Below, piece by piece: positions 5,052 through 27,190 of a stretch of 27,190 nucleotides of DNA. Numbering within the stretch: the stretch's first letter is position 1; each line of letters opens with the position of its first letter. Origin of the DNA: a virus; IMG/VR virus record IMGVR_UViG_3300025764_000015, positions 1-27,190 of that record; one strand, written 5' to 3'. A program made the translations under genes and the position numbers. The notes under the pieces are model-generated. The model made no database searches, was not told the DNA's origin, and saw only the letters and a program-made list of their open reading frames with translations.

Positions 5052-5489
5052 TTATTGAGTTAATTCGCTAGTAAGCCAAGCCGTAGCAAGAGCATTGATC
5101 TGTTCCATCCCGCGACCAGTCCACTGGTTATGACTAATACTGCGGTGCAATTCGCTCGGGATATAGATGATGTCGCTCTGATTGATGTGATGTGCTTCGC
5201 AACCATCAAACGGTTGATTCATGGGAACAAAACCCAACATGCGACGTTTGGCCTTGGATTTGCGCGTCCATACTTGTGTCCCGCCCCTCCACACGGCCAC
5301 GGAAATTTTCATACGCATTTCGGGAGATACGAAATGGCCCATTTGCGCCACAGACATTTTTGCACAAGCTTCTGGGGATACGTAATGACCCATGCGCGCT
5401 AATCGCTGTTTGTCTGTTATCGGAATTCCTTTTCTGGCGGCAGATATTTTTGCTCTGGTTTCTTCTGACTGAGAGTGTCCATATCCCAT
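5052..5489 (-). CDS. NUMOD3/HNH homing endonuclease 2 (short form)
   Basis: The shortest of the seven copies (145 residues). It has about three NUMOD3-type repeats in the first 65 residues (SEETRAKIS, SPEACAKMS, SPEMRMKIS), then a basic KSKAKRRMLGFVPMN segment, and an HNH domain with CEAHHINQSDIIYIP followed by LHRSISHNQWTGRGMEQ. The nuclease residues seen in the longer paralogues are all kept, so it may be active with a shorter target contact. The ATG at 5489 follows a short leader reading frame (5501-5566). It sits between the glycyl-radical gene and the metallopeptidase gene with non-coding flanks on both sides, unlike the tightly coupled copies. Confidence 0.85.
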   Translation of the reverse strand: MGYGHSQSEETRAKISAARKGIPITDKQRLARMGHYVSPEACAKMSVAQMGHFVSPEMRMKISVAVWRGGTQVWTRKSKAKRRMLGFVPMNQPFDGCEAHHINQSDIIYIPSELHRSISHNQWTGRGMEQINALATAWLTSELTQ

Positions 5490-7799: not shown

Positions 7800-8393
7800 C
7801 TATGTCCAGTTTTCCATCAGGTACTGTCCTGCTAGTGCGTTCATCTGTGCCATGCCCCGTCCGGTGTATTGGTCGTGGTAGATACTGCGATGCAACTTCC
7901 TCGGTATGTGAATCACATCATTCTGGTTGATGTGGTGAGCCTCACAATCCATAAACCAAGAGTTCAATGGATTAAAACCAAGTAGGCGGCGCTTGGAACG
8001 ACGTTTACGCATAGATACCCTTGGTCCGCCCTTCCAATGTCCTATACCAATTTTCACCCGAGTTTCATCTGACGGGGAAACACCCTTATTCCATGCTGGT
8101 TTTCCAATAAGCGCAGCAGACAACCTTGCGCACGTCTCAGGTGATACCGTCTTCCCCTTTTCTGCTAAAGCCTGTTTTGCTCTTGTTTCAGGGGATGGAA
8201 TACGCCCCATTCCCGCAGCAGAGATTTTTGCTCGAGTCTCATCTGACGGTGAAATTCCCTTGTTCCAAGCCTTCTGTCCTTTATGCAATGCGGACATCTT
8301 TGCTCTAGTTTCAAGAGATACAACACGTCCAATCCAAGCCGCAGACATCTTTGCTCGCGCCTCAGGAGAGGGATGGGTTCCTAGTCTCATCAT
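7800..8393 (-). CDS. NUMOD3/HNH homing endonuclease 3
   Basis: A 197-residue free-standing endonuclease (196 if the second of the two ATGs is used). At least six NUMOD3-type repeats (S-x-E-T-R-A-K-x-S) fill residues 8-120, two of them with the inserted AWNKG turn. A basic segment (RSKRRLLGFNPLN) precedes the HNH part: CEAHHINQNDVIHIP, then LHRSIYHDQYTGRGMAQ. Its start overlaps the stop of the tail hub gene by 4 bases (ATGA), so it is read as part of the late operon and is expressed with the tail genes. It ends 10 bases before the start of the next small gene. Confidence 0.88.
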   Translation of the reverse strand: MMRLGTHPSPEARAKMSAAWIGRVVSLETRAKMSALHKGQKAWNKGISPSDETRAKISAAGMGRIPSPETRAKQALAEKGKTVSPETCARLSAALIGKPAWNKGVSPSDETRVKIGIGHWKGGPRVSMRKRRSKRRLLGFNPLNSWFMDCEAHHINQNDVIHIPRKLHRSIYHDQYTGRGMAQMNALAGQYLMENWT

Positions 8394-10636: not shown

Positions 10637-12321
10637 ACGTCTGTCCTCTTCAGTTCCACATACCAGCGAGCCGACAAGCCTTGACTCTGCACAATGGTTA
10701 CCGCACTAGATCCAATCGGGATGTCCACACCGCCTAGGAGTGCCGAGATGTCGCTGCCATTGGCATTGACAAGTCGCTTGTCCGAGCCTTTTACGATTTC
10801 TCCCGCGTACCTGTTGCCGACGTATAGGGTATTGTAGAGCAGCGACAATGAGGAGTAGACTAGGGCCTGGTATTCTGCACTCGTCAGCACATATGGATAC
10901 TGGATGAGGTTCGCTAGACTGCCTTCCAACGGCCCTAGTGTCAGTTGCGGCCACGTAAGCGCTGCAAGTGTTCCAGTTGCAGATGTCCACGAACCGCCAT
11001 CAGGATGCACCGCTATGGTGACGGCATGAGAGGTATCTTCTATCACCACTACATCCAATATTTGTCCGTATACTTGGCCCAACAACCATACATAGATGGG
11101 AAAAACAACGCTGACATTCGTAGTCGCGTCAGTCCACGTGAGGCAGTTGTAGGCAAAATCAAGCCGTAGTGTGTTGTTTGCCGATGACCAAATATAGACA
11201 CTGTTCCCACCAAACGCGGCAGTCAAGTCATACAAAACAACGGAATCCAGAAGGAAGTATTCACCGGCAACATTACTATCCATCTGAAATACTAGGTCTC
11301 CACTCGTTGCTGCGGCAACAAAGGTCATAGGCACTGTATGGGCTGCCACAGAACAGTCCACCAAAGCCCCATTTTGGGCTGCGCCGCCCACGGCTGCATA
11401 TATTTTCATCTTGCGTCCCGCGGCGGCGGTTGTTTTTGCCAGACCCGAAAAATAATAGGTGTGACCCGAAATTAACGTGGCGCCAGCCCAGTCCATCGTT
11501 CCAGCGTTCCCAGCGGCTACGGATTTAGCAGACGCGGTACCAGCAAGCGGAGAAACAGTGGTTCTTGTCGTTGTATCGGGGCAATACCATCCCGTTGTAT
11601 TGGTCTCAAAGTCTCCGTTCGTAATAAGGTTGGTCAACGTTATGGGCCGTGTCTGCTTGATTTGCATTGCTACCGTCCGCAGGGTACTAGCGGGCGGTGT
11701 CCACGTTGCCACGTCCTGTGCGGTATCGCTGCCAAGGTAGAGGCCGGAATCGAAGATTGGAGTATTGGCAGGATAGGTCACACCGGCATGGTCTTTAGCG
11801 GCAGAACGCGTAAAGGTGACGGCTTGACCGGCAAAGTCTATCGGGGTATTCGACAAAGGAGCGTAAAACAAAGGGGCAAGGTAGTGGATAATCGGATAGG
11901 CGTTGACGTTACCGGCCTGACTGATTCCGGTGATGGACTGATTACCCCATTTGTAGCCGGTTGTGGGGTAACGGACCGCCGCGCCCTCGCGTAAGGGAGA
12001 GGCAAGCAGCGAAAGGATGTATGGATAGATACCGGACCAACAATCTGAGGCGTAGGGAACGCCTGAAAAGTACACCGTCTGATATGAGGTCCCGCTGTCG
12101 AACGAGATCGCAACCACATCATGCCAGAGACAGGCCGACATGTCTAGAGCGTCACCTGATACCGTGATCTTCTGGACTCCCAGTCCCAGCCGCATCATGC
12201 CTACGATTGAGGTATAGGGTACATGGAACTGCCCGTCCAGGTCCTGTACCTTTTCGATGTCCACCTTGTTCGCAACAACAGTATAGGTACTGCCAGTAGA
12301 GTATTTAACTATGATGCTCAT
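10633..12321 (-). CDS. distal tail (Dit-like) protein with carbohydrate-binding-like insert
   Basis: A 562-residue protein directly after the tape measure, the usual place of the distal tail protein. Residues 1-110 begin a beta-rich N-terminal domain. Residues about 231-370 hold what resembles a family 4/9 carbohydrate-binding module: NLITNGDFETNTTGWYC at the start, SGHTYYFSGLAKT in the middle and EYFLLDSVVLYDL at the end. This jelly-roll fold often binds sugars, so the protein may add a glycan-binding function to the tail tip. The region after 370 has a lectin-like flavour (YIWSSANNTLRLDF) and carries further beta strands. The C-terminal 80 residues are probably structural. It overlaps both neighbours by ATGA. 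Confidence 0.68.
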   Translation of the reverse strand: MSIIVKYSTGSTYTVVANKVDIEKVQDLDGQFHVPYTSIVGMMRLGLGVQKITVSGDALDMSACLWHDVVAISFDSGTSYQTVYFSGVPYASDCWSGIYPYILSLLASPLREGAAVRYPTTGYKWGNQSITGISQAGNVNAYPIIHYLAPLFYAPLSNTPIDFAGQAVTFTRSAAKDHAGVTYPANTPIFDSGLYLGSDTAQDVATWTPPASTLRTVAMQIKQTRPITLTNLITNGDFETNTTGWYCPDTTTRTTVSPLAGTASAKSVAAGNAGTMDWAGATLISGHTYYFSGLAKTTAAAGRKMKIYAAVGGAAQNGALVDCSVAAHTVPMTFVAAATSGDLVFQMDSNVAGEYFLLDSVVLYDLTAAFGGNSVYIWSSANNTLRLDFAYNCLTWTDATTNVSVVFPIYVWLLGQVYGQILDVVVIEDTSHAVTIAVHPDGGSWTSATGTLAALTWPQLTLGPLEGSLANLIQYPYVLTSAEYQALVYSSLSLLYNTLYVGNRYAGEIVKGSDKRLVNANGSDISALLGGVDIPIGSSAVTIVQSQGLSARWYVELKRTDV

Positions 12322-14622: not shown

Positions 14623-15186
14623 TTATGCAATCGCAGTTGCGGCAACGTTCGCAACAATCTTGAACAAGAGACCGGTTGAATCAGGAATTGCTACAGCTGT
14701 AACGGAGATCGTTGCAAACCCATCTTCGGTCGGGAGGATGTTGTCGATCTTCGTGATCTTGCACTTGCCGAAGTTCACGTGAACATCCGCAGGCAATCCA
14801 TTCGTAGCATCGACTGTTTCAAGTCCGGTAATGTCTGTTGACTGGACCTCAAAGCTGAAATAGGGGGGAACGCTTGCCACATTGTAGTTGGACGTTTCAG
14901 TCGTTGCGCTTGGGGTTGACAGAGTATCCCCAGTCAGGGCAGACAGAAGGGCCTTAGATAAACACATGGTGCCAAAAGTAATGTCGGCCTTGTCCAGCTT
15001 CGATGAAACTGCAAACGTGGAACCATCGCCCCTTGCTTGCGCAGAGCTCCATGAAACCGAAGCCTTGACGTCGCTCACTTCTGCAATGTCGATGAGGGTT
15101 GTTGCGGTTCCTGCAACGTAAACTTTGATCTCGCAATCGACTATGCGTGCGACTGCGATTTTCTCAATCATATTGGTAATTGCCAC
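14623..15186 (-). CDS. major tail tube protein
   Basis: A 187-residue protein at the expected place between the tail terminator and the chaperone. It is beta-rich with a regular strand pattern: MIEKIAVARIVDCEIKVYV, then TLIDIAEVSDVKASVSW, a central domain with SKLDKADITFGTM, and a closing strand VHVNFGKCKITKID. Tail tube proteins of this size polymerise as hexameric rings around the tape measure. The start is a GTG at 15186 sharing a base with the upstream stop (TAGTG), with GGAGGC in front. The size and Ala/Thr/Ser-rich composition fit the family, but there is no single diagnostic motif. Confidence 0.72.
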   Translation of the reverse strand: MAITNMIEKIAVARIVDCEIKVYVAGTATTLIDIAEVSDVKASVSWSSAQARGDGSTFAVSSKLDKADITFGTMCLSKALLSALTGDTLSTPSATTETSNYNVASVPPYFSFEVQSTDITGLETVDATNGLPADVHVNFGKCKITKIDNILPTEDGFATISVTAVAIPDSTGLLFKIVANVAATAIA

Positions 15187-15521
15187 TAGAAGCCTCCGAG
15201 AGCATCAAATGTGCTCACAACGTGGGTGTTTCCGCTCTCTGGAATCTCGCGGTGATGTACGACCGAACCATATTTATTAGCGACAACACGTATTGCAGCT
15301 TCAACCGCCACTAGGTCAGTAGTGGACTTTGCCCACGAATCAACCTGGACGTGCCATGACGCCAAGTTATGATCTATGCCCCGTTCACCGTCAATCGTTG
15401 CCATAACACCACAATCAGGCATGGGTGACGTAACGGGCGGCCAACCCCTATAAACGCGAGAGGCAAACACAAGGGGAAACTTCTTCAGTTCAACGATAAC
15501 GGCGTCAACGAGGTCAGTCAT
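15186..15521 (-). CDS. tail terminator / tail completion protein (DUF3168-like)
   Basis: A 111-residue protein with the layout of siphovirus tail terminators: an N-terminal helix (LVDAVIVELKKFPLVFASRV), a central region with GIDHNLASWHVQVDSWAKS, and a final strand (TFDALGGF). The stretch WHVQVDSWAKSTTDLVAVEA resembles the V-Q-V-D-x-W/x-A region shared by tail terminator families. The protein stops growth of the tail tube and joins it to the head connector. It starts at an ATGA overlap with the gp10-like gene; GAGG lies 7 bases upstream of the ATG. Confidence 0.7.
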   Translation of the reverse strand: MTDLVDAVIVELKKFPLVFASRVYRGWPPVTSPMPDCGVMATIDGERGIDHNLASWHVQVDSWAKSTTDLVAVEAAIRVVANKYGSVVHHREIPESGNTHVVSTFDALGGF

Positions 15522-15910
15522 TTCTTTACCTCATTGAGATACTTGGCAATGAAGTCGGGCATAGCACGAAAGCCAACCTCTGCGGCACGGGTCATAAACA
15601 AGAGCGGCTCAATATAGCGAGTGCCAAACTCTTGATAGACTGCATAGTTCACGTCCTCTGTCTGCCCTTCGCCCGTACCAGCAGACCCGCCAGCCGTCAC
15701 CGTAACCGTCTTGTTTTCCTTATCGGGATGTGTTGCAATGGAGGATCGGAGGTTGTTCGTGTCAATGCGCGTCTCAAACTGCTTGGCTTCCCGCTCAATC
15801 CGCAGGCCAGTATCAACACAGCCACGATAGACGGCATTGGGATATTCCTTTGCCATACCCTGCAATACCTTGTTCAGTTCTGCCATTCCCGAAATCTCTA
15901 CGTTAATCAT
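15518..15910 (-). CDS. HK97 gp10-like head-tail joining protein
   Basis: The likely product is 130 residues from the ATG at 15910, which has TAGGAGAGCC in front; the open frame to 15946 overlaps the beta-helix gene and has no better start. The N-terminus reads ISGMAELNKVLQGMAKEY, followed by RIEREAKQFETRIDTNNLRS and a final YAVYQEFGTRYIEPLLFM, the classical HK97 gp10 signature (amphipathic helix, T-x-x-L-R-x-S, Y-x-x-x-x-E-x-G-T-R). These proteins connect the head completion complex to the tail. Four bases overlap with the tail terminator gene. Confidence 0.85.
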   Translation of the reverse strand: MINVEISGMAELNKVLQGMAKEYPNAVYRGCVDTGLRIEREAKQFETRIDTNNLRSSIATHPDKENKTVTVTAGGSAGTGEGQTEDVNYAVYQEFGTRYIEPLLFMTRAAEVGFRAMPDFIAKYLNEVKK

Positions 15911-15917
15911 GGCTCTC

Positions 15918-16880
15918 CTACGCCCAAGTATTCCCGCCGCCATCAATCAGCTGCGGAGTGCCCACGATAGCAAGTCCCCCTGATGCAGTGGCGTGCATGT
16001 TGCTGACCTTGCCCGTGGAATATTCGGCAGCGACCGATATGTTGGCGAACCCCCATGTAGGGGAACCCGTGTTGCTGATTTTCCAACCATCAAGAATGAG
16101 GTTAGTGAGTGGGCCTCTCCCACTTCCACTAGCATAGACTGCGAAGCAAGCGTTTGACACGACCCAGCCGATAGCAGTGACGTTGTTCCCTCCGTAGACC
16201 TGGAGGGCCGACATTTGACGGTCAGTAGCCTCGACAGTCCAGCGATTGGCCGTAAAGTTTGTTACAAACACGGTCTTAGTGGACGTTATGTAAATCGCTA
16301 TAGAGCTATTCGGCGGAGAAATTGCCGGGTTGCAACGGCTGTTGCGAACGACCATATCATTGAGAGTGATGTCGTGACAGTTGAAGGCTTGGATGATGCC
16401 CTGCTGACCAAGGATGTATCCGTCGAAGATGAGATTCTGCATCGTGATGTTGCCAGCTGGGTTATCGAAACCAAAGCCGAATTGAGGATCCCTCCCGCTA
16501 ACTGAACCCGACAGAATCACCACAGCACCTATTTTTGGCCGTACCACGACGAGCCGCGTCCGGTTGATGTTGATAACCGTGTAGGGAAAATGATACGTCC
16601 CCGCCGCCATCTCAATCACGTCAACGGATTCATCAGCAAGAAGGGTCATGAAAGCACTGATGGTCTGGCCCGATGTGAAGGAAACGATGCGTTGAGTGGG
16701 CGTCGTCGGTGCAGGAACTGGTGCAAGAATTGGTGCAGGAGCGGCAGGCTTAGATGATTCCAATGCCTTAATGCGAGTATCTAGGGCAGTGATTTGTCCT
16801 TGAATCCCTGACAAATCGGTAGCAACAATATCAATGGTATGGCTATGTGCGCCAGATGAAGATGTCGTTTTCATGCTCAT
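15918..16880 (-). CDS. beta-helix adhesin-like protein with coiled-coil and linker
   Basis: A 320-residue protein. The start is the ATG at 16880, chosen because AGGAGG lies 6 bases upstream; the frame is open to 17108 but the extra part overlaps the upstream gene. Residues 1-24 are Ser/Thr-rich, residues 25-42 form a short coiled coil (GIQGQITALDTRIKALESSK), and 44-62 are a Pro/Ala linker. After residue 66 come repeats of a right-handed beta-helix (e.g. NITMQNLIFDGYIL, HDITLNDMVVRNSR, LTNLILDGWKIS), the fold of pectate lyases and phage tailspikes. It probably binds or processes a surface polysaccharide; catalytic residues are not evident. It follows the leucine-rich-repeat gene by 20 bases. 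Confidence 0.72.
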   Translation of the reverse strand: MSMKTTSSSGAHSHTIDIVATDLSGIQGQITALDTRIKALESSKPAAPAPILAPVPAPTTPTQRIVSFTSGQTISAFMTLLADESVDVIEMAAGTYHFPYTVININRTRLVVVRPKIGAVVILSGSVSGRDPQFGFGFDNPAGNITMQNLIFDGYILGQQGIIQAFNCHDITLNDMVVRNSRCNPAISPPNSSIAIYITSTKTVFVTNFTANRWTVEATDRQMSALQVYGGNNVTAIGWVVSNACFAVYASGSGRGPLTNLILDGWKISNTGSPTWGFANISVAAEYSTGKVSNMHATASGGLAIVGTPQLIDGGGNTWA

Positions 16881-16900
16881 GTTGTTCCTCCTAAAACACA

Positions 16901-17665
16901 TTATGCCCAAAAAAATGGAATGAAGTTCGGTTTGACTGTTACCGGTGGACTTTCGGCTGCTGTCGTATAGGTATTGAACGGATTTGTCCACCCAGTTGCT
17001 CCTGTATAGTAATAGATGACAAAGCCAGCATGAACACCAGAGAACACGGTAGTCCCCCACGTCGCAGGGGCATTTCCGTGGAAGTGTGCCGTTACCAGTG
17101 CGGAACAATCCAGAAACACATTATTGCCAATACTGGTAACGCCGCTCCCGATGATTACAGTAGTCAGTCCCGTACAATTATAGAAAGCAGTATTCCCAAT
17201 GCTGGTTACGCTGTTGGGGATGGACAAAGCGGTTAGAGACGTACAACTAGCAAATGCACTACCGCCAATGCTGGTCACGCTATTGGGAATGATTAAGCCG
17301 GTCAGCACAGTACAATCATGGAACGCATCAGCTCCAATGCTGGTTACGCCACTCCCGATAGTCACACTGGTCAGTCCTGAACAACCCTCGAATGCACTAG
17401 CTCCAATACTAACTACGCCATTCCCAATAGTCACGCTAGTCAATCCCACAATATGATAGAATGCCATGCTGCCAATACTGGTTACGCTATTCGGGATAAT
17501 TACGCTGGTCGGAGTCTTACCGTAGAACGCAGTAGTCCCGATAGCAACAACCGGATACGTATCTAGCGTTGATGGGATTGTTATAGCGCCGCCCGCCCCC
17601 GTATAAGCCGTGATGGTGGCGTTACCGCCAGATTGCGTATAGGTATAATCGCCGCTCTGTGCCAT
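16901..17665 (-). CDS. BspA-like leucine-rich-repeat protein
   Basis: A 254-residue protein. Residues 51-189 consist of six repeats of 23-24 residues with the consensus L-T-x-V-x-I-x-x-x-V-T-S-I-G-x-x-A-F-x-x-C, the LRR_5/BspA type found in adhesins of anaerobic bacteria. The C-terminal 60 residues (with WGTTVFSGVHAGFVIYYY and GATGWTNPFNTYTT) also resemble the end of BspA-type proteins. There is no signal peptide or wall anchor, consistent with a virion protein. The gene follows the fibre gene without a gap (TAAATG) and has AGGAAG at 5-6 bases. It probably serves binding to host or environmental glycans or proteins; the partner is unknown. Confidence 0.85.
   Translation of the reverse strand: MAQSGDYTYTQSGGNATITAYTGAGGAITIPSTLDTYPVVAIGTTAFYGKTPTSVIIPNSVTSIGSMAFYHIVGLTSVTIGNGVVSIGASAFEGCSGLTSVTIGSGVTSIGADAFHDCTVLTGLIIPNSVTSIGGSAFASCTSLTALSIPNSVTSIGNTAFYNCTGLTTVIIGSGVTSIGNNVFLDCSALVTAHFHGNAPATWGTTVFSGVHAGFVIYYYTGATGWTNPFNTYTTAAESPPVTVKPNFIPFFWA
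17099..17515 (-). repeat. six tandem LRR coding units of about 69 bp
   Basis: The DNA encodes six consecutive 23-24 residue repeats. The recurring ACCAGTATTGG-like segment (encoding TSIG on the opposite strand) appears once per unit. Unit number could change by slippage or recombination, varying the adhesin's length. Confidence 0.7.
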
Positions 17666-19063
17666 TTATGCTTCCTGTCCTGCCGACAAGAGATTCCACT
17701 TCGTCAGGTCGACGCGCCAAATGAACAGCATGGTCAAGTTCTTGCTGGCTACCGTGATTGAGGGAAGTGCCACGCCCGCTTTGGCAACATACAGATTTCC
17801 ATAGGTTACTGCTCGCGGTGTGGCATCGCTTAGAATCTCGAACAACATCATGTCGCCATTAACGGGCGTGCTCGATGAGTGGTTGTTGATGACTAAGGCA
17901 TGCGCCTGTGCTGTCCGAATGAAGATGTCATAGGTTGAAATCTCGGGGGTAATTGTGTCTGTCGTTGCTTGCACATCTACTCGCCGTGTAAACCTATGGT
18001 TCGTTACCGTCACGGTTGCTGCGTTCTTTGTGGCATCGGAAGTATTATCGACGTTCGTAATGGATGCCGATGCCGCAGCCCCGAGAGTTGCCAGTTGTGC
18101 CGCAGCGTTAGCATCGTTGATAAGTTCTGCTCCCGCAGCAGAAATGGTCGTACTTGCGGGTAGGACAAGGGTTGCAATATCCGCGTCCACGTTCAGGGCG
18201 GCAGCAGTACCAAGCGTTGGCTTGTCGGTAATACCGGCCCATGTCGTTGTTCCAGCAGCACCGGTGTCCCCAGTGTCTCCCTTTGGTCCGGCTACGATTG
18301 AATCAGCACCGGCAGTGCCAGTTGTTCCAGTGTCGCCTTTTGCGCCGGCAGCTCCAGTAGCCCCCGTTGTACCTTGAATCCCTTGTGGACCCGCAACGGT
18401 AGAGTCTGCACCCGCTGCTCCAGTCGAACCAGTTGCGCCGGTCTCACCTTGAATACCTTGCGAACCCGTTGCCCCAATGCTGCCCGTGTCTCCCGTGGCT
18501 CCTGCTGTGCCATTCTGCCCTGCTGTACCAGCGTTGCCCTGGATCCCCTGTTCACCTTGCGGCCCAACAAGAGCGGCAAGTTGCCCCTCCGTAAAATCAG
18601 CGTAGACAAACGCATCGCCATCGGCACCTGCTGCACCGGTGTTACCGGTTATTCCTGTATCTCCCTTAGGACCTACGACCGTCGAATCTGCGCCAGTTGC
18701 ACCCGTGTTGCCGGTGTCACCTTTAGCGCCAGCAGCCCCCGCAGTTCCAGTATCACCCTTGGAACCAACAGTCCCCGCTGCGCCAGTAGAACCAGCGGAA
18801 CCCGTATTGCCTTGAATGCCCTGAGTACCCTGAGGGCCAGTTGGTCCTTGTGCACCCGTAGCCCCCTGAATACCCTGCGAACCAGTCTCCCCCTGAGCAC
18901 CAGTTAAGCCTTGCGAACCCGTAGCACCTGTGGGGCCTACTGGACCCGTAAGATTGCCGTCCGCACCGGCTGCCCCGGTGTCTCCCTTATCTCCTTTGTC
19001 GCCCTTTGTCCAGACAACCCCCGGAAGGGCTGGGGGTGAGAGCGGATCCCAAATCTTGCTCAT
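17666..19063 (-). CDS. collagen-like fibre protein
   Basis: A 465-residue protein. Residues 1-20 are a non-collagen head with SPPALPGVVW. Residues 21-271 are Gly-x-y triplets rich in GDTG, GATG and GIQG, interrupted at about 127-130 and 150-166 (AFVYADFTEGQLAALV) and by a few short breaks. Residues 272-345 are the phage-fibre segment WAGITDKPTLGTAAAL, with Ala-rich spacers. The rest (about 350-465, with FIRTAQAHALVINNHSSST and MLFIWRVDLTKWNLLSAGQ) is a compact beta domain likely to trimerise at the tip. Collagen-like stretches form triple-helical rods in phage fibres. It starts at an ATGA overlap with HNH 4 and precedes two further adhesins. Confidence 0.85.
   Translation of the reverse strand: MSKIWDPLSPPALPGVVWTKGDKGDKGDTGAAGADGNLTGPVGPTGATGSQGLTGAQGETGSQGIQGATGAQGPTGPQGTQGIQGNTGSAGSTGAAGTVGSKGDTGTAGAAGAKGDTGNTGATGADSTVVGPKGDTGITGNTGAAGADGDAFVYADFTEGQLAALVGPQGEQGIQGNAGTAGQNGTAGATGDTGSIGATGSQGIQGETGATGSTGAAGADSTVAGPQGIQGTTGATGAAGAKGDTGTTGTAGADSIVAGPKGDTGDTGAAGTTTWAGITDKPTLGTAAALNVDADIATLVLPASTTISAAGAELINDANAAAQLATLGAAASASITNVDNTSDATKNAATVTVTNHRFTRRVDVQATTDTITPEISTYDIFIRTAQAHALVINNHSSSTPVNGDMMLFEILSDATPRAVTYGNLYVAKAGVALPSITVASKNLTMLFIWRVDLTKWNLLSAGQEA
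18251..19003 (-). repeat. collagen-like Gly-x-y repeat region
   Basis: About 250 codons of Gly-x-y, with GGN codons every 9 bases. Short nearly identical blocks recur, giving a low-complexity DNA tract prone to length change by slippage or unequal recombination. Three interruptions divide it into blocks. Confidence 0.75.
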
Positions 19064-19656
19064 GATAATGCCTCGCTTAAGAATTCATCAGTCTGCCACT
19101 GGCGATTGTGTCGGACGCCATATATGTGATGAAACTCTTTATGACAATTGTTGCAAAGCGTAATCCCGTTATCAATATCCATACGCCTCTCGGGGATGTC
19201 AGCAAAAGAATCCATGTGATGCACTCGCAATATCCCACCCTCGTTGTTGCATTTCTGGCAAGTAAAGGCATCGCGAGTAAATACCGCCGTTCGCCAAGAA
19301 GAATAGACGTCGCTAGTTCGGATTAGCATCAATTCTGGAGCAATCCCCCCCCTCCATGCGGGATTCAATTCGCCACGCACGTCCCGGTGATTGGCAGAAA
19401 GGGCGATGCGATGCTCTATCGAAAACGATATTCCCCTGTGTCCCAATCCAATTTTCGCCCTAGTTTCAACCCCCGGATGAAGCCCCGTGTTTGCTTTCGA
19501 TAGCGCCTGTCGAGTAGAATCTGGCATAGGATGACCCGGCTTTCCCTTGTGGGCCGCGGATATCTTCGCCCGTGTTTCAGCAGAAACAACGCGCCCCATT
19601 AAGGAGGCAGAATCTTTTGCTTTCTGCTCAATCGTTAAATGGCTTCCGAGTCTCAT
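19060..19656 (-). CDS. NUMOD3/HNH endonuclease 4 (classical CxxC zinc HNH type)
   Basis: A 198-residue endonuclease. The first 100 residues have NUMOD3-type repeats (SAETRAKIS, GVETRAKIG) and the GHPMPDSTRQALSKA variant. The nuclease differs from copies 1-3: WRTAVFTRDAFTCQKC, then LRVHHMDSFADIPERRMDID and ITLCNNCHKEFHH, a classical HNH domain with two CxxC pairs that bind a structural zinc; H-H, N and H of the active site are all present. It overlaps the connector gene by 4 bases at its start and the fibre gene by 4 at its end, so it is threaded into the coupled operon. Copy 6 at 22473 has the same type of nuclease. Confidence 0.88.
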   Translation of the reverse strand: MRLGSHLTIEQKAKDSASLMGRVVSAETRAKISAAHKGKPGHPMPDSTRQALSKANTGLHPGVETRAKIGLGHRGISFSIEHRIALSANHRDVRGELNPAWRGGIAPELMLIRTSDVYSSWRTAVFTRDAFTCQKCNNEGGILRVHHMDSFADIPERRMDIDNGITLCNNCHKEFHHIYGVRHNRQWQTDEFLSEALS

Positions 19657-20435
19657 GGGAGTGTAAAAGGAAGATAGGGCCGCAGGATTGCTGCTACATC
19701 AGCAGGTATGCGCTTGTCGATGAATGTTCCAGGCTGTGCTGTCGTAACCAGTTGAAGTTGATATGCCACAAGCATTCTTGCGGCATTCTCAATCGTAGCG
19801 GGGAGGGTAGGCCAGCCACCAACATAAGTAAGAATAATGCGAGGGTCGGAACAACGCGAGGTCAGCAGTTCGATATGCCGCGGATACACATAATAGTCAA
19901 TCCATGGCGTGAGCGTTGTGTCATAGGTACCATCCGTATCAGTAAGGTCGTTGCGATACTTGACCATCAAACCGGAATAGACGGGTTCGGGAAAGGGGAT
20001 AATCGTGTTTCCTACTATCTGATATGTAACCGCATGGTTTGTGACCTCGTAGTTCAGCTCATTTTCAATAGTTATGAGCGCATCATCCCACATGGATTGC
20101 AGAAGCGAATCCCGGCTCACATCATTTTCGGCAAGTTGAAGGTACTGCTTCAGCAGGGTCAATGACGTAATAACCGTCACCGTGTATTGCTGTGTCGAAG
20201 CGTCCTCAGCCATTACCATGTAAACAATGGGGGAAGTGAAATCCCCAGCCGTACCCGATGTGGGCGCGATAGAAGCAAGAGCTGAAATCGTAATCGTTGG
20301 AACAAATGCCGTCACGGGTACGCCATACGGTACCGTCAGCGCTACGGTATGCGTGACCTCGTTGACCACACCCGTGACGGTCGGGGTCAGACCCGCAAAC
20401 TGGAATGAAGTTATGGCCTTCAAAGCGCTAGGCAT
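19653..20435 (-). CDS. head-tail connector with N-terminal Ig-like domain
   Basis: A 260-residue protein. Residues about 5-85 look like an Ig/cadherin-type domain as in DUF5018-like modules: ITSFQFAGLTPTVTG, then THTVALTVPYGVPVTAF, then VYMVMAEDASTQQYTVTV. Residues about 90-260 resemble an HK97 gp6-like head-tail connector: LLKQYLQLAENDVSRDSLLQ, then MWDDALITIENELNY, a beta section, and a final helix (ATIENAARMLVAYQLQL). The connector closes the portal and receives the tail. The Ig-like part would probably project on the outside of the virion neck or head. The start overlaps HNH 5 by 8 bases, with GGAGGGG in front; the stop overlaps HNH 4 by 4. Confidence 0.72.
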   Translation of the reverse strand: MPSALKAITSFQFAGLTPTVTGVVNEVTHTVALTVPYGVPVTAFVPTITISALASIAPTSGTAGDFTSPIVYMVMAEDASTQQYTVTVITSLTLLKQYLQLAENDVSRDSLLQSMWDDALITIENELNYEVTNHAVTYQIVGNTIIPFPEPVYSGLMVKYRNDLTDTDGTYDTTLTPWIDYYVYPRHIELLTSRCSDPRIILTYVGGWPTLPATIENAARMLVAYQLQLVTTAQPGTFIDKRIPADVAAILRPYLPFTLP

Positions 20436-21102
20436 TGACCCCTCCTATAAAAGACAACGCAAGCGCGTTGATCTGTTCCATATTCTTGCCAGTCCATTGA
20501 TTGTGTCGGATGCTGCGATGCAAATCTCTCGGAATATAGACAATGCGGTCATGGTCAAGGTGGTGGGCTTCGCACCCCTCAAAGTATGTATTCAGTGGCA
20601 CAAAACCAAGGGTGCGACGTTTAGCCTTGAACTTTCGGCGCGTTACCGCCTGACCGCCTTTCCACCTGAGACTTAATGATCCCGAGGGCAGCCCCTTATG
20701 GAACTTAGACAATTTAGCGCGCGTCTCAGCGGAGGGGTGGCTGCCAAGATTCGCATTAAGCAATGCAATCCGAGTAGATTCGGCCATGACGTGCCCCTTT
20801 TGAGCCGCAGACTCTTTTGCTCGCGTCTCGGTTGATACGGGCAAACGATGTTCCCATGCCTCAGACTCTTTTGCCCGCGTTTCGGGAGACGCAATGCGCC
20901 CCTTCATCGCAATAGATATCTTTGCGCGAGTCTCTTCTGAACGATATGCCCCGAGGCCATTTGTATTCCCCATCCTAGCTATAGACATTTTTGCTCTAGT
21001 TTCTTCGGATGGCGACACGCCCTTATTCCACGCAGGTCGTCCCATAAGTGTCGCAGAAATCTTTGCCCGAGTTTCATCAGACATATGGCCCCCAGGCTTC
21101 AT
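20428..21102 (-). CDS. NUMOD3/HNH homing endonuclease 5 (longest repeat array)
   Basis: The largest of the HNH_3-type copies (224 residues). The start is the ATG at 21102 with AAGGAGG in front; the frame is open to 21168 but overlaps the preceding small gene. About seven NUMOD3-type repeats fill residues 5-150, including SDETRAKIS, SEETRAKMS, SPETRAKES and SAETRAKLS. A basic segment (KAKRRTLGFVPLN) precedes CEAHHLDHDRIVYIP and LHRSIRHNQWTGKNMEQ. In this copy the asparagine usually following HH-x is an aspartate region (HHLDHD), which may alter activity. It overlaps the connector gene by 8 bases and sits 13 bases after the small gene. Confidence 0.88.
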   Translation of the reverse strand: MKPGGHMSDETRAKISATLMGRPAWNKGVSPSEETRAKMSIARMGNTNGLGAYRSEETRAKISIAMKGRIASPETRAKESEAWEHRLPVSTETRAKESAAQKGHVMAESTRIALLNANLGSHPSAETRAKLSKFHKGLPSGSLSLRWKGGQAVTRRKFKAKRRTLGFVPLNTYFEGCEAHHLDHDRIVYIPRDLHRSIRHNQWTGKNMEQINALALSFIGGVNA

Positions 21103-21115
21103 ATCGACACCCTCC

Positions 21116-21295
21116 TTATGCCTTGTGATTGTAATGACGCAACTGTTTATCGCTCTTGCTCTCTTCAATATCCAGTTGTTCTATGTAGCCTTTGGCAATC
21201 AGAAGGACGGCAACCTCGGGGTCGTACTCAATGACGTCCCCAGCCTTGAACCCTTCTGCATTTGTTGGCATCTTTGCTGTAACTCTGTACTTCAA
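21116..21295 (-). CDS. small protein following the capsid gene, head-tail joining candidate
   Basis: A 59-residue product: TTG start at 21295, preceded by GAGGTG at about 5 bases; TAA at 21118-21116. The sequence begins MKYRVTAKMPTNAEGFKAGD and continues VIEYDPEVAVLLIAKGYIEQ. Small proteins with a GDVIE...A..LI..GYIE pattern are often found just downstream of capsid genes in siphoviruses and are sometimes annotated as head fibre or head-tail joining proteins; a definite role is not established here. The rest is charged (EESKSDKQLRHYNHKA). It follows a GNRA-capped hairpin at 21310-21329 and precedes HNH 5 by 13 bases. Confidence 0.7.
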   Translation of the reverse strand: MKYRVTAKMPTNAEGFKAGDVIEYDPEVAVLLIAKGYIEQLDIEESKSDKQLRHYNHKA

Positions 21296-21345: not shown

Positions 21346-22461
21346 CTAGGCTGTGTTGTACTTCAATGCATACATTGAAAGCGGCTGAATCAGATTGCCG
21401 TCTGTGTAGACCTTCGCGGCAACATACGTCTGATCCATCGTCATCGCAGTCTTGCCAACATCGGTCGTGGCAATCTGGATAGGTCCATCGCTAAAGAGGT
21501 AGTAGGCCTTAGGATCACCAAAGTACGCGGCAACCTTGCCATCCGCGGGTGAGTCAAAGCAGCTCTCGGGCATACGAATCACATCGATTCCACCGAAGAA
21601 CTTCATGGTGCCGATGTCAAAATAGTTCATTCCGCCAGCAACGAGAGGATCGTTCAGAAGAGCGATCTGTGCCAGGAATGAATTGGGCGCAATCAGTACG
21701 CCACCATCAGCGTACATGCCATCAAGCGACCAGAACAACTTGAGCAGGTCGGCTTTGGTAACTTCCGCGAGAGTGTCATGCGTTGCAACCATATCAACGG
21801 CAGTCGCGCGTCCAACCATGCCGGTCATTTCGAACGTAGCCCCGCCATGAATACCAAGCGTCCACTCATAGGTCTCCCTGCGAGCAATGGCGCGAACAAG
21901 GGCATCCTCAATATAGGGGATGGTGCGAATCGTGGCATTGCGAATGAGGTCGTTGTCGATTCCCATCCATGCCATGATGCCAGAAGTGGAATATTCAATT
22001 GGCAAAAGCGTCGGGGTCGCTTCAGGAACGGGCTTACCAGCAAGCATACGGTAGGCCAGCGGCAGTGTTGATTCTGCCAGAATCGTTCCCTTCGGGCTGT
22101 ACGGATACTGCGTTACGGACCGGCGGAAGGGCGTATTGTCCAACTTCAACACAAGACTGTTTGCGACAACCGTCGGAATCAGCTCGGCAGCAGCGCCAGA
22201 TGTTGCGCTAGTCCAGGCCTTAGCTTCCCAAGGGAGACCCTTACCGAGACACTGTCTGTACCATGCGGCCTTGCCTTCCGCTTCCTGCTTCGGGGTCAGT
22301 TCCCCGTTTGCGCTAAGATCGGGGGTAATGGTTACAGACTTCATGGCGTCCATTAAATCAGTGTGAAGCTGATCACGAGTTGCAAAGGAGCCTTCTTTTA
22401 CCAGCTTCTCTGCCACCCCGTCGATAATATCCTGTTGCATTGCTTTCTCTTGCTCAGTCAC
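21346..22461 (-). CDS. HK97-fold major capsid protein
   Basis: A 371-residue protein with a GTG start (AGGAGG 6 bases upstream). The first ~60-85 residues form a helical delta-domain-like scaffold (EKAMQQDIIDGVAEKLVKEG) likely removed by the protease. The body has features of HK97-type capsids: ELIPTVVANSLVLKLDNTPF near residue 93, MAWMGIDNDLIRNATIRTIP, and the C-terminal P-domain stretch YFDIGTMKFFGGIDVIRMPE. ALVRAIARRETYEWTLGIHG resembles the spine helix and following loop. It forms the icosahedral shell. The prohead protease gene precedes it, separated by HNH 6. Confidence 0.9.
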   Translation of the reverse strand: MTEQEKAMQQDIIDGVAEKLVKEGSFATRDQLHTDLMDAMKSVTITPDLSANGELTPKQEAEGKAAWYRQCLGKGLPWEAKAWTSATSGAAAELIPTVVANSLVLKLDNTPFRRSVTQYPYSPKGTILAESTLPLAYRMLAGKPVPEATPTLLPIEYSTSGIMAWMGIDNDLIRNATIRTIPYIEDALVRAIARRETYEWTLGIHGGATFEMTGMVGRATAVDMVATHDTLAEVTKADLLKLFWSLDGMYADGGVLIAPNSFLAQIALLNDPLVAGGMNYFDIGTMKFFGGIDVIRMPESCFDSPADGKVAAYFGDPKAYYLFSDGPIQIATTDVGKTAMTMDQTYVAAKVYTDGNLIQPLSMYALKYNTA

Positions 22462-22472
22462 TTCAGACCTCC

Positions 22473-23135
22473 TCAGGTCACTTGATAGACTTCTAACGTT
22501 GCGAGTAAATCGTCTATCGGCCCGGGCTGCACGTCTCCTGACGTACTCTTGCTCAATGCCTCTAGCACAAACTCATCGGCCTGCCACCGGCGATTGTGTC
22601 TTGTTCCATACTGAAGATGGAATTGTTTGTGGCAGTCCACACAGAACGTGATACCGTTATCCACGTCCAATCGTCTTTCTGGAAAATCTGCAAAGCAGTC
22701 CATGTGATGCGCTTGCAACTTCTTGCCACGCTCACCACAAATTGCACAAGTGAAATCGTCACGCTCAAACACGGCAGTGCGCCAATTTGCATAAGGGGCG
22801 CTTGCCCGAATAAGCTCTTTTTGAGGAGTAACCCCGCCCTTCCAGTTGTGGCTAAGCGGACCGGTAATTGACGCGGCCTTGTTAGCGCACCATTCAGGGG
22901 ACTGCTTAAGCCCGAGGTGAGACTTCAATAATGCGGCCTTGTTTACGTCAGACATCTTGTGCCCCATCAGGCCCGCAGAAATCTTTGCGCGAGTTTCAGG
23001 AGATGCGGCGCTACTAATCGCAGACAGTTTTGCCTTGTGTTCCTCTGAAAGCGAACGACCACGATTTGCCTTCAGTAGCGCGGCCCGAACAGACTCCGAC
23101 ATCGGAATCCCCTTATTCCACGCAACATGCCCCAT
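22473..23135 (-). CDS. NUMOD3/HNH endonuclease 6 (classical CxxC zinc HNH type)
   Basis: A 220-residue endonuclease inserted between prohead protease and capsid genes. NUMOD3-like repeats at the N-terminus include the variant SESVRAALLKANRGRSLSEE and a canonical SPETRAKIS near residue 45. The nuclease has WRTAVFERDDFTCAICGERG, then LQAHHMDCFADFPERRLDVD, then ITFCVDCHKQFH and RHNRRWQADEF, the same type as copy 4. It has an extra C-terminal tail of about 25 residues (STSGDVQPGPIDDLLATLE). It starts 6 bases after the protease stop with a weak AGGGG site and ends 11 bases before the capsid start, so it shares the head-gene transcript. Confidence 0.88.
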   Translation of the reverse strand: MGHVAWNKGIPMSESVRAALLKANRGRSLSEEHKAKLSAISSAASPETRAKISAGLMGHKMSDVNKAALLKSHLGLKQSPEWCANKAASITGPLSHNWKGGVTPQKELIRASAPYANWRTAVFERDDFTCAICGERGKKLQAHHMDCFADFPERRLDVDNGITFCVDCHKQFHLQYGTRHNRRWQADEFVLEALSKSTSGDVQPGPIDDLLATLEVYQVT

Positions 23136-23841: not shown

Positions 23842-25845
23842 CTAGATCACAGGTAAAATCGTACAGCGACAGTTAATTGTTTCATCTGCGCTTCCAGCGG
23901 GGTCGCCTGGATACATTAGGGATTCGCCCCCCACGTTAAACGGTTCATCTACTCCAACAACTTGCCCATCTGCTTCGGCATGATCATCGCGCACACGGCT
24001 GTCGTTTGTTGAAAGCCATTCATGCTGCTTAACGCCGTTTTCCGTATACACATCCTGGGCAGCAGCATTGTTGGCTGCTATGACATTTGTGCGGGCAACT
24101 CGCTCGGCACGATAGGCGATATTGTCGAAGTAGCCCTTCGTAGCCTTGACCATATCTGGAATCGAGGCTCCATTGGCTCTCGCGTCTGCCAATATCTGCG
24201 AGATTTCATCGGCAGTTGTCTGGTTAACAAGCTTGGATTGCTTGCTTTCCTGCGCTCGAATCCACTTAAGGATTGCTGAACCATCAGGAACGGCCATGGA
24301 GTAGCGAGCAGCAACTTCTTCAGCAGATTGCATGCCGAACGCCACGAACAGTGAGTGCCAGTTATCCACAAAATCTGAATCATCAAGCAGTGCGCGAAGG
24401 GGCTTAGTTGCAACCGCCTTAGCTCCATCTGCCACCCATGATTCAACAACCTTGGCTTGCTTGTTGAACGCCTTCATCGTTGCCTGTGCAAACTTTTTCT
24501 CCTGTGGGGCAGTCTTGGCAATGAACGCCTTGGCGATGAGCTTACGCGCTTCCGGGCTATGCAACGCCTTGATACCCTTTGGCTCAGCCACGGGCACAGA
24601 ATCGCCCTCAGGTGGCACAACAGGTTCAGTAGTTGCAGGAGGTGCAACAGGTGGGGGCGGCTCTGGCAAGTCGGATGTTGAAATTGGAACAAGCATCGCG
24701 CTGCACCAGAACACATCTCCCCATGCAACCTTCTTCAGCCCATCCCGTATCCGCGCCTCGTTGATGGTCAGTTTGCCCGAGCGGAACTCTATCTCATCAC
24801 TCTGCGCCCGCTCTAGCCTGTTTGCTTGTAGACACTCAATGCCCGAGTAGTCAAACTTGAACGTCAACCCCTTAAGTCCTGGCAGTAGCGGCAGCAGGAA
24901 CGTAGTAATCCGGTCCGCCAGTCTGTCGGCCTTGGGGATAATCGTATTCGAGTAGAGGATGCGCTCTTGTGTCTGCGCGTTGCTGTAGTCCACGCTTTGC
25001 GTATCATTCAAAAACACACCAGGTACGCCAAATGCCGCGCCTATTTCCTCACGGGTAACCTTGCTGACTTCCAACAGTTTCAGATCGGCTGCGCTTATGC
25101 CCAGTTTCTCAAAGTGGTAACCAGCAGAAAGCCAGCCAATGCCGCCCGCTTTCTGGATACCCGAATACTTTTCCTCCCATGCCTTCTTAGCCGCCATGAG
25201 TTCGGGTCCAGTCAACTTGAAATCGGTCGTCATCAGTCCGGCCAAAGCACCGCCTGAACTCATCTGGCTATTCCAAACTTGCTTGGCGCCTTCATCCATG
25301 TTGGCGGTGTCAAGAATGGGACGTAGTTCAGAGAGACCGAGCTGACCCGTGATGCTGAAGTTCGGGAACAGCACAATGTTGGATTTCAGTAACTGTCTAT
25401 CGGAGTATTGCCCGTTCAATCCCGGCTCGCGGTAATTGATGTTGCCGCCCTTGTCAATGAGGATCATGTCAGCATCGAGGACGGTGAGACCCTTGATGGC
25501 GGGAACCTCGACGTAAACCATACCCGTACCCTGTAACAATTCCCAGGCGATGATTCTTTCCACGAATTCAGTTCCAGTCTGGTTTGGTGAGGGCCTAGTC
25601 AAGACTGCTGACTTGCCTTCCACTACCTTGTCGCCGTTCATCAAATGCCAAGGCAGGGAGCCTATCCGGGTCGCAACTGTAGAAACCGCTCTCAGGATCC
25701 ACACGCTCTTGTCGACTGCGGTGCGGGCATCGGTGACCAACATCTGCCCCTTGTCAGGGTAAAGGACGCTCATAACATCGGCCATGGCTGTGTTAAATGG
25801 CACACCGTCCTTGCGTCCGAATGTTCTAGATAACCAATTAGCCAC
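23842..25845 (-). CDS. portal protein fused to MuF-type head protein
   Basis: A 667-residue protein with a GTG start (GGAGGC upstream). Residues 1-395 are a HK97-type portal: VSTVATRIGSLPWHLMNGD, then IIAWELLQGTGMVYVEV, then SKVTREEIGAAFGVPGVFLN, and a region with SVDYSNAQTQERILYSN. A Pro-rich linker (LPEPPPPVAPP, about 395-435) leads to a helical spacer and a MuF-type C-terminus (578-667): YRAERVARTNVIAANN, HEWLSTNDSRVRDDHAEADG and a final CRCTI with the typical Cys pair. Portals form the DNA entry ring; MuF proteins are packed within or near the portal in the head. The fusion ensures equal stoichiometry. The N-terminal 8 bases overlap HNH 7. Confidence 0.9.
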   Translation of the reverse strand: MANWLSRTFGRKDGVPFNTAMADVMSVLYPDKGQMLVTDARTAVDKSVWILRAVSTVATRIGSLPWHLMNGDKVVEGKSAVLTRPSPNQTGTEFVERIIAWELLQGTGMVYVEVPAIKGLTVLDADMILIDKGGNINYREPGLNGQYSDRQLLKSNIVLFPNFSITGQLGLSELRPILDTANMDEGAKQVWNSQMSSGGALAGLMTTDFKLTGPELMAAKKAWEEKYSGIQKAGGIGWLSAGYHFEKLGISAADLKLLEVSKVTREEIGAAFGVPGVFLNDTQSVDYSNAQTQERILYSNTIIPKADRLADRITTFLLPLLPGLKGLTFKFDYSGIECLQANRLERAQSDEIEFRSGKLTINEARIRDGLKKVAWGDVFWCSAMLVPISTSDLPEPPPPVAPPATTEPVVPPEGDSVPVAEPKGIKALHSPEARKLIAKAFIAKTAPQEKKFAQATMKAFNKQAKVVESWVADGAKAVATKPLRALLDDSDFVDNWHSLFVAFGMQSAEEVAARYSMAVPDGSAILKWIRAQESKQSKLVNQTTADEISQILADARANGASIPDMVKATKGYFDNIAYRAERVARTNVIAANNAAAQDVYTENGVKQHEWLSTNDSRVRDDHAEADGQVVGVDEPFNVGGESLMYPGDPAGSADETINCRCTILPVI

Positions 25846-26419
25846 GTCTTGCCTCCAATGCCTCTTCTACTTCCTGCTTGAAAAGGAAGTTGTAGGCAAT
25901 CGCGTTAATCTTTGCCATGCCCTGTCCAGTATGCTGATTATGGTAAACGCTACGATGCAGAGCGTGAGGCATATTGATGACCCGTTCGTTGTCAATGTGA
26001 TGCCCTTCGCAACCAACAAAGCACTCATTCAATGGAACAAACCCGAGCAAGCGGCGCTTAGCCTTAGACCTGCGCCTAAATGCCATTGGACCGCCCTTCC
26101 AACCTAAACCCATGTGGGCAGCGGACAACCTTGCCCAAGTTTCTTCTGAGTAAACAAGGTGGCGGCCCCGCCTGTTTGTGTTCCCTCTCTGTGCCATAGA
26201 CATGTTTGCACGAGCGTCAAGGGATACTGGGTGCCCCACTTGAGCAATTGACATGTGCCCCCTTGTCTCATCGGACTTGGATACGCCCGCCATTGTCGCA
26301 GAAATCTTTGCTTTGGTTTCATCTGAAACGTGACCCCCAAGGCGGTTTTGGTTTCCCATCATGCCAGCAGAAATGTTCCTCTTCTGCGCTTCTGTCCGTA
26401 CGTATATTCCCGTTGGCAT
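25838..26419 (-). CDS. NUMOD3/HNH homing endonuclease 7
   Basis: A 193-residue endonuclease between terminase and portal genes. The start at 26419 (MPTGIYVRTEAQKRNIS) is chosen because this MPTGIY start is typical of NUMOD3-HNH proteins and it lies one base after the terminase stop; the frame runs on to 26434. There are about five NUMOD3-type units (SDETKAKIS, SDETRGHMS, SLDARANMS, SEETWARLS). The basic segment is RSKAKRRLLGFVPLN; the nuclease has CEGHHIDNERVINMP and LHRSVYHNQHTGQGMAK. Its end (NAIAYNFLFKQEVEEA) is nearly that of HNH 1. It overlaps the portal gene by 8 bases. Confidence 0.87.
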   Translation of the reverse strand: MPTGIYVRTEAQKRNISAGMMGNQNRLGGHVSDETKAKISATMAGVSKSDETRGHMSIAQVGHPVSLDARANMSMAQRGNTNRRGRHLVYSEETWARLSAAHMGLGWKGGPMAFRRRSKAKRRLLGFVPLNECFVGCEGHHIDNERVINMPHALHRSVYHNQHTGQGMAKINAIAYNFLFKQEVEEALEARRG

Positions 26420-26420
26420 C

Positions 26421-27190
26421 TTAGGCGACCACACACATGCTTGGCGTGAAAGCGAGCATCAGGGATTCGGCTCTGTCGGGGGACCTGCCCAGCGTCTCTT
26501 TGACGCGGTCCTTACTTTGGATGCAGATTTTTCCAGTGATGGTATAATCAAACGTCACCATCAACTCTCGCTTCAAGTCTTGATCATCAGGAATGCAGAT
26601 ATCGTCATTGAGAAAGCGATCTCTGAGACCCCAGTACAATTCGGCTTTCCTATTCGCAAACTTCTCAGAGTCCCAAGCCTGTTCTGCCACATTCACACCG
26701 TTGACGCCTTGAACACCCATGTCATTGAGCGCGTCGACTACCCCAGCGCCTATCCCAATCACATCGACGTTCACAGCCTCGCTCATATCTTCTGCTGCAA
26801 CATCACGTACGCGCTTTGCCAAGGTCATTAAATCCATACCATGAATACTCTCTTGACTGATGACCGCATTACCGTGTCGAACAGTTATAACGCTGTTGTC
26901 GGACCCGAATCTGGCGACGTCGACTCCGAGAACATGAGGCAAATCAGTTCCAGTGTGAACGCGACCCATAGCGGCAAGAATGGAAGCGAGAGGAATGACA
27001 GACTTGTTCATCGAGGCTTTGTTCAGACTACAGGCATATTCCTGAGCGAACCTTTCCTCATCACCGTCCAACTCTGCAAGTTTGGACACACGCCACGCTT
27101 CTGTATGCGCGGGGTTGCCCTCATAGTTCTGTTCCATCCGATACCACGCAGGATTGTCCAATAGGGACTCGAATAGAGAACCTTCAGGAC
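26421..27190 (-). CDS. terminase large subunit, C-terminal nuclease part (5'-truncated by window edge)
   Basis: The frame is open to the right edge, so the N-terminal ATPase part lies outside the window. The visible 256 codons contain the C-terminal RNase H-like nuclease: LGVDVARFGSDNSVITVRHG with the first acidic residue, VDVIGIGAGVVDALNDMG with the second, and SPDRAESLMLAF near the end with the third. This nuclease cuts concatemeric DNA during headful or cos packaging. The stretch PEGSLFESLLDNPAW before the TTG at 27161 is in frame without a stop, which shows the gene continues. It ends one base before HNH 7. Confidence 0.9.
   Translation of the reverse strand, partial: PEGSLFESLLDNPAWYRMEQNYEGNPAHTEAWRVSKLAELDGDEERFAQEYACSLNKASMNKSVIPLASILAAMGRVHTGTDLPHVLGVDVARFGSDNSVITVRHGNAVISQESIHGMDLMTLAKRVRDVAAEDMSEAVNVDVIGIGAGVVDALNDMGVQGVNGVNVAEQAWDSEKFANRKAELYWGLRDRFLNDDICIPDDQDLKRELMVTFDYTITGKICIQSKDRVKETLGRSPDRAESLMLAFTPSMCVVA

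Follow-up and report, generated by a model that had tools for sequence, protein, structure and literature searches.

The window, which comprised the whole 27,190 bases of a virus record, was found to carry at 19653-20435 an open reading frame on the minus strand, starting with an ATG at 20435 and encoding a protein of 260 aa. The original prediction of a gene at this position was borne out, with its strand corrected to minus, since the plus-strand reading of the same interval contains stop codons inside the translation. A purine-rich, ribosome-binding-like site lies ahead of the start in all of the eight relatives checked, whether fused or sister. The gene and its parts are as follows.

20439..20446, minus strand: ribosome-binding site AGGAGGGG, upstream of the ATG (from the sequence)
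20166..20435, minus strand: N-terminal Ig-like domain, DUF5018-type, residues 1-90 (Pfam, profile, AF2 model, fold match)
19653..20165, minus strand: head-tail adaptor region, residues 91-260 plus stop (PHROG 442, solved adaptors)
20052..20165, minus strand: opening part of the adaptor's helix-bundle tube, residues 91-128 (model helices 91-98 and 109-127; weak TIGR01560)
19809..20048, minus strand: inserted beta "attachment" domain, residues 130-209 (model strands; T5/DT57C adaptor alignment)
19656..19799, minus strand: remainder of the helix bundle with the C-terminal tail, residues 213-260 (model helices 213-232 and 245-254; solved-adaptor alignment)

The gene is located between the capsid and the neck and tail genes, as expected of the adaptor class, and the order of transcription was terminase-like, portal/Mu-F, protease-like, HK97-type capsid, Ig-adaptor, gp10-like Neck1, and tail genes. 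The terminase-like frame was called by reading and gave no Pfam match, and the probable tail terminator, placed by its position, matched nothing in Pfam or PHROG.

23842..25845, minus strand: portal protein carrying a fused Mu-F-like domain (E 6.8e-52 to Pfam Phage_portal and E 2.8e-16 to Phage_Mu_F)
21346..22461, minus strand: major capsid protein of HK97 type, upstream of the adaptor (Phage_capsid, E 1.5e-12; PHROG 10, E 1.4e-14)
15518..15946, minus strand: HK97-gp10-like Neck1 or tail completion protein, the next neck gene (PHROG 5, E 7.6e-15)
15186..15521, minus strand: probable tail terminator (position only, the Neck1 gene lying on one side and the candidate gene for the major tail protein on the other)
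710-1315, 5052-5489, 7800-8393, 19060-19656, 20428-21168, 22473-23135 and 25838-26434, all minus strand: NUMOD3/HNH-like reading frames (ETRAKIS-type motifs)

The seven homing-endonuclease-like frames, with their repeated ETRAKIS-type motifs, are wedged between several virion genes, and two of them flank the Ig-adaptor gene, overlapping by a few bases. Pfam NUMOD3 was confirmed in four of the five frames tested, 710-1315 giving no match and 5052-5489 and 7800-8393 being left out. Between the adaptor and Neck1 (15918-19063, minus strand) lie three genes, whose products are a collagen-repeat protein of 465 aa, an LRR protein of the BspA type (254 aa), and a protein of 396 aa that Pfam did not match. 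These three were absent from L005, L006, L008, L009, L013, L022, L023 and L026, and L007 has a different gene; coupling of the Ig module to the downstream collagen-like fibre gene was ruled out, as the gene set was confined to the window, L002 and L003, the last two being near-identical to the window. Meanwhile, a gene of about 200 aa without a PHROG match was seen between the capsid and the Ig-adaptor in L007 (5386-5991) and L009 (1597-2196), and in none of the other fused loci compared.

Residues 3-87 matched Pfam DUF5018 with an E-value of 1.1e-8, and since the 34.9 bits fall below the curated (gathering) cut-off of 38.2 bits and the match spans just positions 131-212 of the 352-position model, the domain is named DUF5018-type here, not a full DUF5018 protein. 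In a single-sequence phmmer search the solved Bacteroides proteins 8a9y and 3hbz were matched with an E-value of about 1e-5 (1.1e-5), and a family profile built from eight phage copies matched the Ig domains of 8aa2/8a9y among the solved structures with an E-value of about 1e-13 (1.3e-13). The AF2 model of residues 1-91 alone, based on an alignment of 61 sequences (10 phage and 51 bacterial, the latter from 79 bacterial loci), reached a mean pLDDT of 87.5. This model was superimposed on 3hbz (BT_2081) with a Z of 13.8 over 89 residues at 2.2 Å and on 8aa2_G (levan SGBP) with a Z of 13.7 over 86 residues at 1.5 Å, with general cadherin and Ig chains ranking next at Z 4-5.5. Residues 1-90 are thus predicted by the model to form an Ig-like beta-sandwich of the solved surface-protein type, and the assignment of the first ~85 residues to an Ig/cadherin-type module, made earlier from the sequence, was upheld by these results. 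The Ig domains of BT_2081 and the levan SGBP share the fold and show a clear profile match with the adaptor Ig; their carriers are, however, surface lipoproteins or large surface-type proteins, whereas the carrier here is a phage neck protein. No paper on DUF5018 in phage virions was found in the portion of the literature available.

The C-terminal part of 172 aa (query 89-260) matched PHROG 442, a head-tail adaptor family, over its residues 2-166 with an E-value of 2.3e-9. No PHROG family matched the full-length protein at an E-value of 0.1, no Pfam family matched the C-terminal part at an E-value of 1, and the adaptor profile, searched against the sequences of solved structures, returned nothing relevant; TIGR01560 matched residues 93-132 weakly, below the cut-off. 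Prediction of the full protein recovered the adaptor fold, and the Ig domain was recovered with confidence when modelled alone: the mean pLDDT of the full-length model was 66.7, with blocks of 58-87 over residues 91-260 and of 40-61 over the Ig part. Because of this low confidence over the Ig, the placement of the two domains relative to each other is not predicted. In fold comparison, the full model matched the RcGTA adaptor (6toa_D; Z 11.3, 157 residues, 4.5 Å), the DT57C adaptor (8hqo_P; Z 10.1, 153 residues, 3.8 Å), the T5 adaptor (Z 9.8), HK97 gp6 (3jvo_G; Z 9.7 over 89 residues), and SPP1 gp15 (7z4w_a; Z 8.4 over 95 residues).

In the model, helices at 91-127 and 213-254 enclose a beta domain at 130-209. 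The T5 adaptor p144 is described as a helix bundle of residues 1-45 and 111-170 with an attachment domain at 46-110 (PMC11313276), which, shifted by about 90 residues, is the same layout as that of residues 91-260. The same arrangement of a helix bundle with an inserted beta domain is seen in the structures of RcGTA (6TOA), T5 p144 (9ILP), and DT57C (8HQO). The protein from residue 91 to residue 260 is a head-tail adaptor of the type found in RcGTA, T5 (p144) and HK97 (gp6). The earlier description of this part as a gp6-type connector therefore holds in the wide sense, its closer kin being the adaptors of 170-190 residues from RcGTA, T5 (p144), and DT57C; the HK97 gp6 and SPP1 gp15 connectors have the helix-bundle core in common with the window adaptor, but are of about 100 residues and lack both the inserted beta domain and an N-terminal Ig. 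As the adaptor is of the RcGTA/T5 p144/DT57C kind with an inserted domain, the polypeptide contains two beta domains, namely the Ig at its N-terminus and the domain inserted at 130-209. The matched RcGTA, T5, and DT57C chains, at 170-195 residues, leave no room for an added Ig domain, and T5 p144 is depicted as beginning straight at the helix bundle, unlike the Ig-bearing adaptor of the window. That the protein is a single connector fold throughout, with no Ig module, was ruled out, as the Ig and the adaptor were recovered separately by sequence and by fold, and two homologs (L028 and L035) start at the junction between them.

The fusion was also found in 13 further viral contigs from several metagenomes, at 66-100% identity, and this recurrence rules out chance or mis-assembly; the contig end falls inside the Ig at L013/L018, and L011, with the last 39 residues only, was left out of judgement. 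Across 62 adaptor loci examined, the Ig was present in three (L022, L023, L026), two were close Ig-less sisters (L028, L035), two (L084, L085) carried an unrelated N-terminal domain, and the other 55 were distant adaptors in which reading revealed no domain-like extension, L043, L064 and L078 ending at the contig edge. The two sisters share about 50% identity with the window adaptor and the same capsid-adaptor-gp10 gene order, and their ATG sits at the domain junction, so that they begin with MDLTALK and MDLTTLK where the window has ITSLTLLK. The Ig module is accordingly an accessory, in-frame modular addition placed before the first tube helix, with the junction at about residue 90. A scan of genome contigs with the full protein as query returned no bacterial or prophage copies of the fusion, and the adaptor part was unmatched in 50,697 isolated-phage records. 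With the whole protein as query, those records gave one match, MT835962, to the Ig part only. The Ig-bearing reading frames of this GenBank entry (MT835962.1, L187, "Bacteriophage sp.") resemble large secreted bacterial proteins, and the entry is possibly bacterial DNA filed as phage.

As for selection, dN/dS was calculated for the 28 pairs among eight sequences: leaving aside four saturated pairs, the Ig gave 0.07-0.24 (24 pairs), and leaving aside one, the adaptor gave 0.08-0.17 (27 pairs). Because synonymous sites approach saturation, these ratios are rough. They place both the Ig reading frame and the adaptor under purifying selection. Identity of the Ig within the fused family was 58-89%, and in two pairs the adaptor was better conserved than the Ig (98% vs 86% in L009/L026; 94% vs 78% in L008/L022). 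In sliding windows, mosaicism was patchy across the whole region, and a break at the domain junction appeared in L008/L022 only; targeted swapping of the Ig was therefore not upheld and no such exchange is claimed.

Discussion of phage Ig-like domains usually centres on capsids, tails, and fibres, the proteins of which Fraser reportedly described in 2006 as bearing Ig-like decorations. Such decorations are accessory Ig domains shuffled among virion proteins, as is the case here. The families usually found in phages are, according to the R4C authors, Big2, I-set and FN3 (PMC10276861), whereas the Ig of the window is DUF5018-type and sits on an adaptor. Beyond adaptors, the module was found on phage contig L184 (1921-3195), where a phi29-type major capsid protein (Pfam Phi29_MCP, E 2.4e-60) has a C-terminal DUF5018-type Ig, and in L185/L186 (2470-3249), where a 256-aa frame with a C-terminal DUF5018-type Ig belongs to PHROG 6767 (unknown function) and looks like a putative tail protein. 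A scan of bacterial genomes with the Ig confirmed 161 stretches, of which the best 79 loci were considered; hosts among the matches listed include Paenibacillus, Bacteroidota, Riflebacteria, Patescibacteria, and others, and in the 52 of these 79 loci that were examined, the Ig is part of open frames 275-2080 aa long and is often repeated in tandem. The module was apparently captured from bacterial surface proteins.

A precedent is provided by roseophage vB_DshS-R4C, whose adaptor gp4 (PDB 8GTD) was reported from cryo-EM to have an N-terminal Ig-like domain joined to a tube domain, the Ig domains of the dodecamer forming a peripheral ring of twelve that touches the capsid (PMC10276861). An Ig on a connector, regarded at first as an oddity, is thus unusual, though not unprecedented; in the part of the literature available, R4C was the sole adaptor found described with an Ig-like domain. 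The two systems share an N-terminal Ig-like domain on a head-tail adaptor and differ in the type of tube. In the published description, the R4C tube is short, with two helices, its Ig itself being the attachment domain, and its authors place that Ig outside the usual Pfam Ig families (PMC10276861). The R4C adaptor matched PHROG 5774/118, not 442, whereas the window Ig sits atop a full RcGTA/T5-type adaptor of PHROG 442 with its own inserted beta domain. 8GTD did not figure among the structural matches listed for either model, which carries no weight in either direction. Alignment of the window-type Ig profile with the R4C adaptor by hhalign gave no match (E 0.42). Judged by these sequence comparisons, what was known is an Ig on an adaptor, and what is new is the other adaptor type and the other Ig family.

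Furthermore, a second clade of PHROG 442 adaptors (L084, L085, L092-L105, L108), which also match Phage_connect_1, carries an unrelated, conserved N-terminal domain of about 90 residues. Among the best 80 of 359 loci, 15 matched from residue 5 or earlier, L092 and L093 being contigs of L084/L085. Pfam matches of this domain to YtkA and Invasin_D3 were weak and below the cut-off, and in isolated phages, the related Shagrat gp13 and phiPsal1 neck protein have annotated lengths of about 190 residues and lack it. Profile comparisons among the N-terminal domains of the window, the L084 clade, and R4C gave no match and lend no support to their homology. The adaptor N-terminus may be a recurrent docking point for beta-sandwich decorations acquired separately in the window Ig, the L084/L092-L105 domain, and the R4C Ig, a generalization for and against which we find the case evenly balanced. 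If true, there would be an overlooked class of phages with about twelve Ig-like neck appendages, swappable without touching the DNA channel.

Considering these features, we regard it as probable that the window protein is an RcGTA/T5 p144-type adaptor with an in-frame DUF5018-type Ig, some twelve of which would stand outside the neck as an accessory decoration. Twelve adaptor subunits would assemble into a ring beneath the portal, the helix bundles making up the tube and the inserted beta domains being directed toward the capsid, and about twelve Ig domains would be arrayed on the outer neck rim beside the capsid vertex; judging from the solved relatives, about twelve Ig copies per virion are most likely. 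There the Ig domains might either brace the symmetry-mismatched joint of neck and capsid or adhere weakly to cell-surface polymers, and would be dispensable for the ring itself. As RcGTA and phage 812 are both described with their adaptor beta domains on the outer surface and touching the capsid, the N-terminal Ig is most simply another outward appendage. External decoration of the neck is, by this analogy, quite probable; the location rests on relatives because the full-length model is weak over the Ig and the ring assembly is known from them. The adaptor chamber of phage 812 is reported to widen to 80 Å, so volume alone is not a strict bar to an inward Ig.

Within external decoration, bracing is slightly more likely than adhesion. 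The proposal of the R4C authors for their adaptor Ig, applied here, would have the domain seated beneath the capsid vertex to take up the 5-fold/12-fold mismatch, a reading that is plausible if still short of probable: the R4C adaptor Ig is described as contacting the capsid with such a mismatch (PMC10276861), and the adaptor adjoins the capsid or portal in the solved relatives, as far as their descriptions go. A bracing Ig could nevertheless be redundant, because the inserted attachment domain, lying already where RcGTA, T5, and 812 make contact with capsid or portal, may itself touch the capsid; moreover, the sister phages manage without an Ig, and the same module occurs on unrelated phage proteins. 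A low-affinity ring around the neck binding cell-wall or extracellular polymers is a possible role, held here more tentatively. The module comes from a family of bacterial surface-type proteins, in which it is often tandem, the Ig has diverged to 58-89% identity within the fused family, and the Ig domains of the Douge capsid and tail are reported to bind the host cell surface (PMC13033339). In the levan SGBP, however, the two Ig domains are described as separate from a third, levan-binding domain (PMC7618045), which argues against a lectin role insofar as the glycan-binding site of the nearest solved Ig relatives lies in another domain, and the neck is far from the tail tip.

A fusion kept as evolutionary baggage, devoid of function, is improbable: the module is a captured one and sisters have the adaptor without it, but its frame shows low dN/dS and has been kept between lineages at the identities given above, with a ribosome-binding-like site ahead of the start. 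Least probable of all, the proposal that the N-terminal domain stands in for a missing stopper (head-closure) ring, raised by the lack of a recognised separate stopper gene between the adaptor and Neck1, was rejected, since the Ig-less L028 and L035 also go directly from adaptor to gp10-like gene, the T5 connector, described like that of the window without a stopper, consists of the portal, a bare adaptor, and the terminator (PMC11313276), Shagrat and phiPsal1 run from adaptor to terminator or tail-completion gene, and the fold resembles surface-protein Ig domains.

An Ig family of bacterial surface proteins on an adaptor with Ig-free sisters amounts to a natural experiment on the role of Ig domains at the neck, and with so clean a domain junction, deletions or swaps could be designed around it in a cultured relative. 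Elsewhere in the window, a tail-region protein encoded at 10633-12321 on the minus strand was seen to contain a CBM_4_9 carbohydrate-binding domain (Pfam E 1.5e-6).
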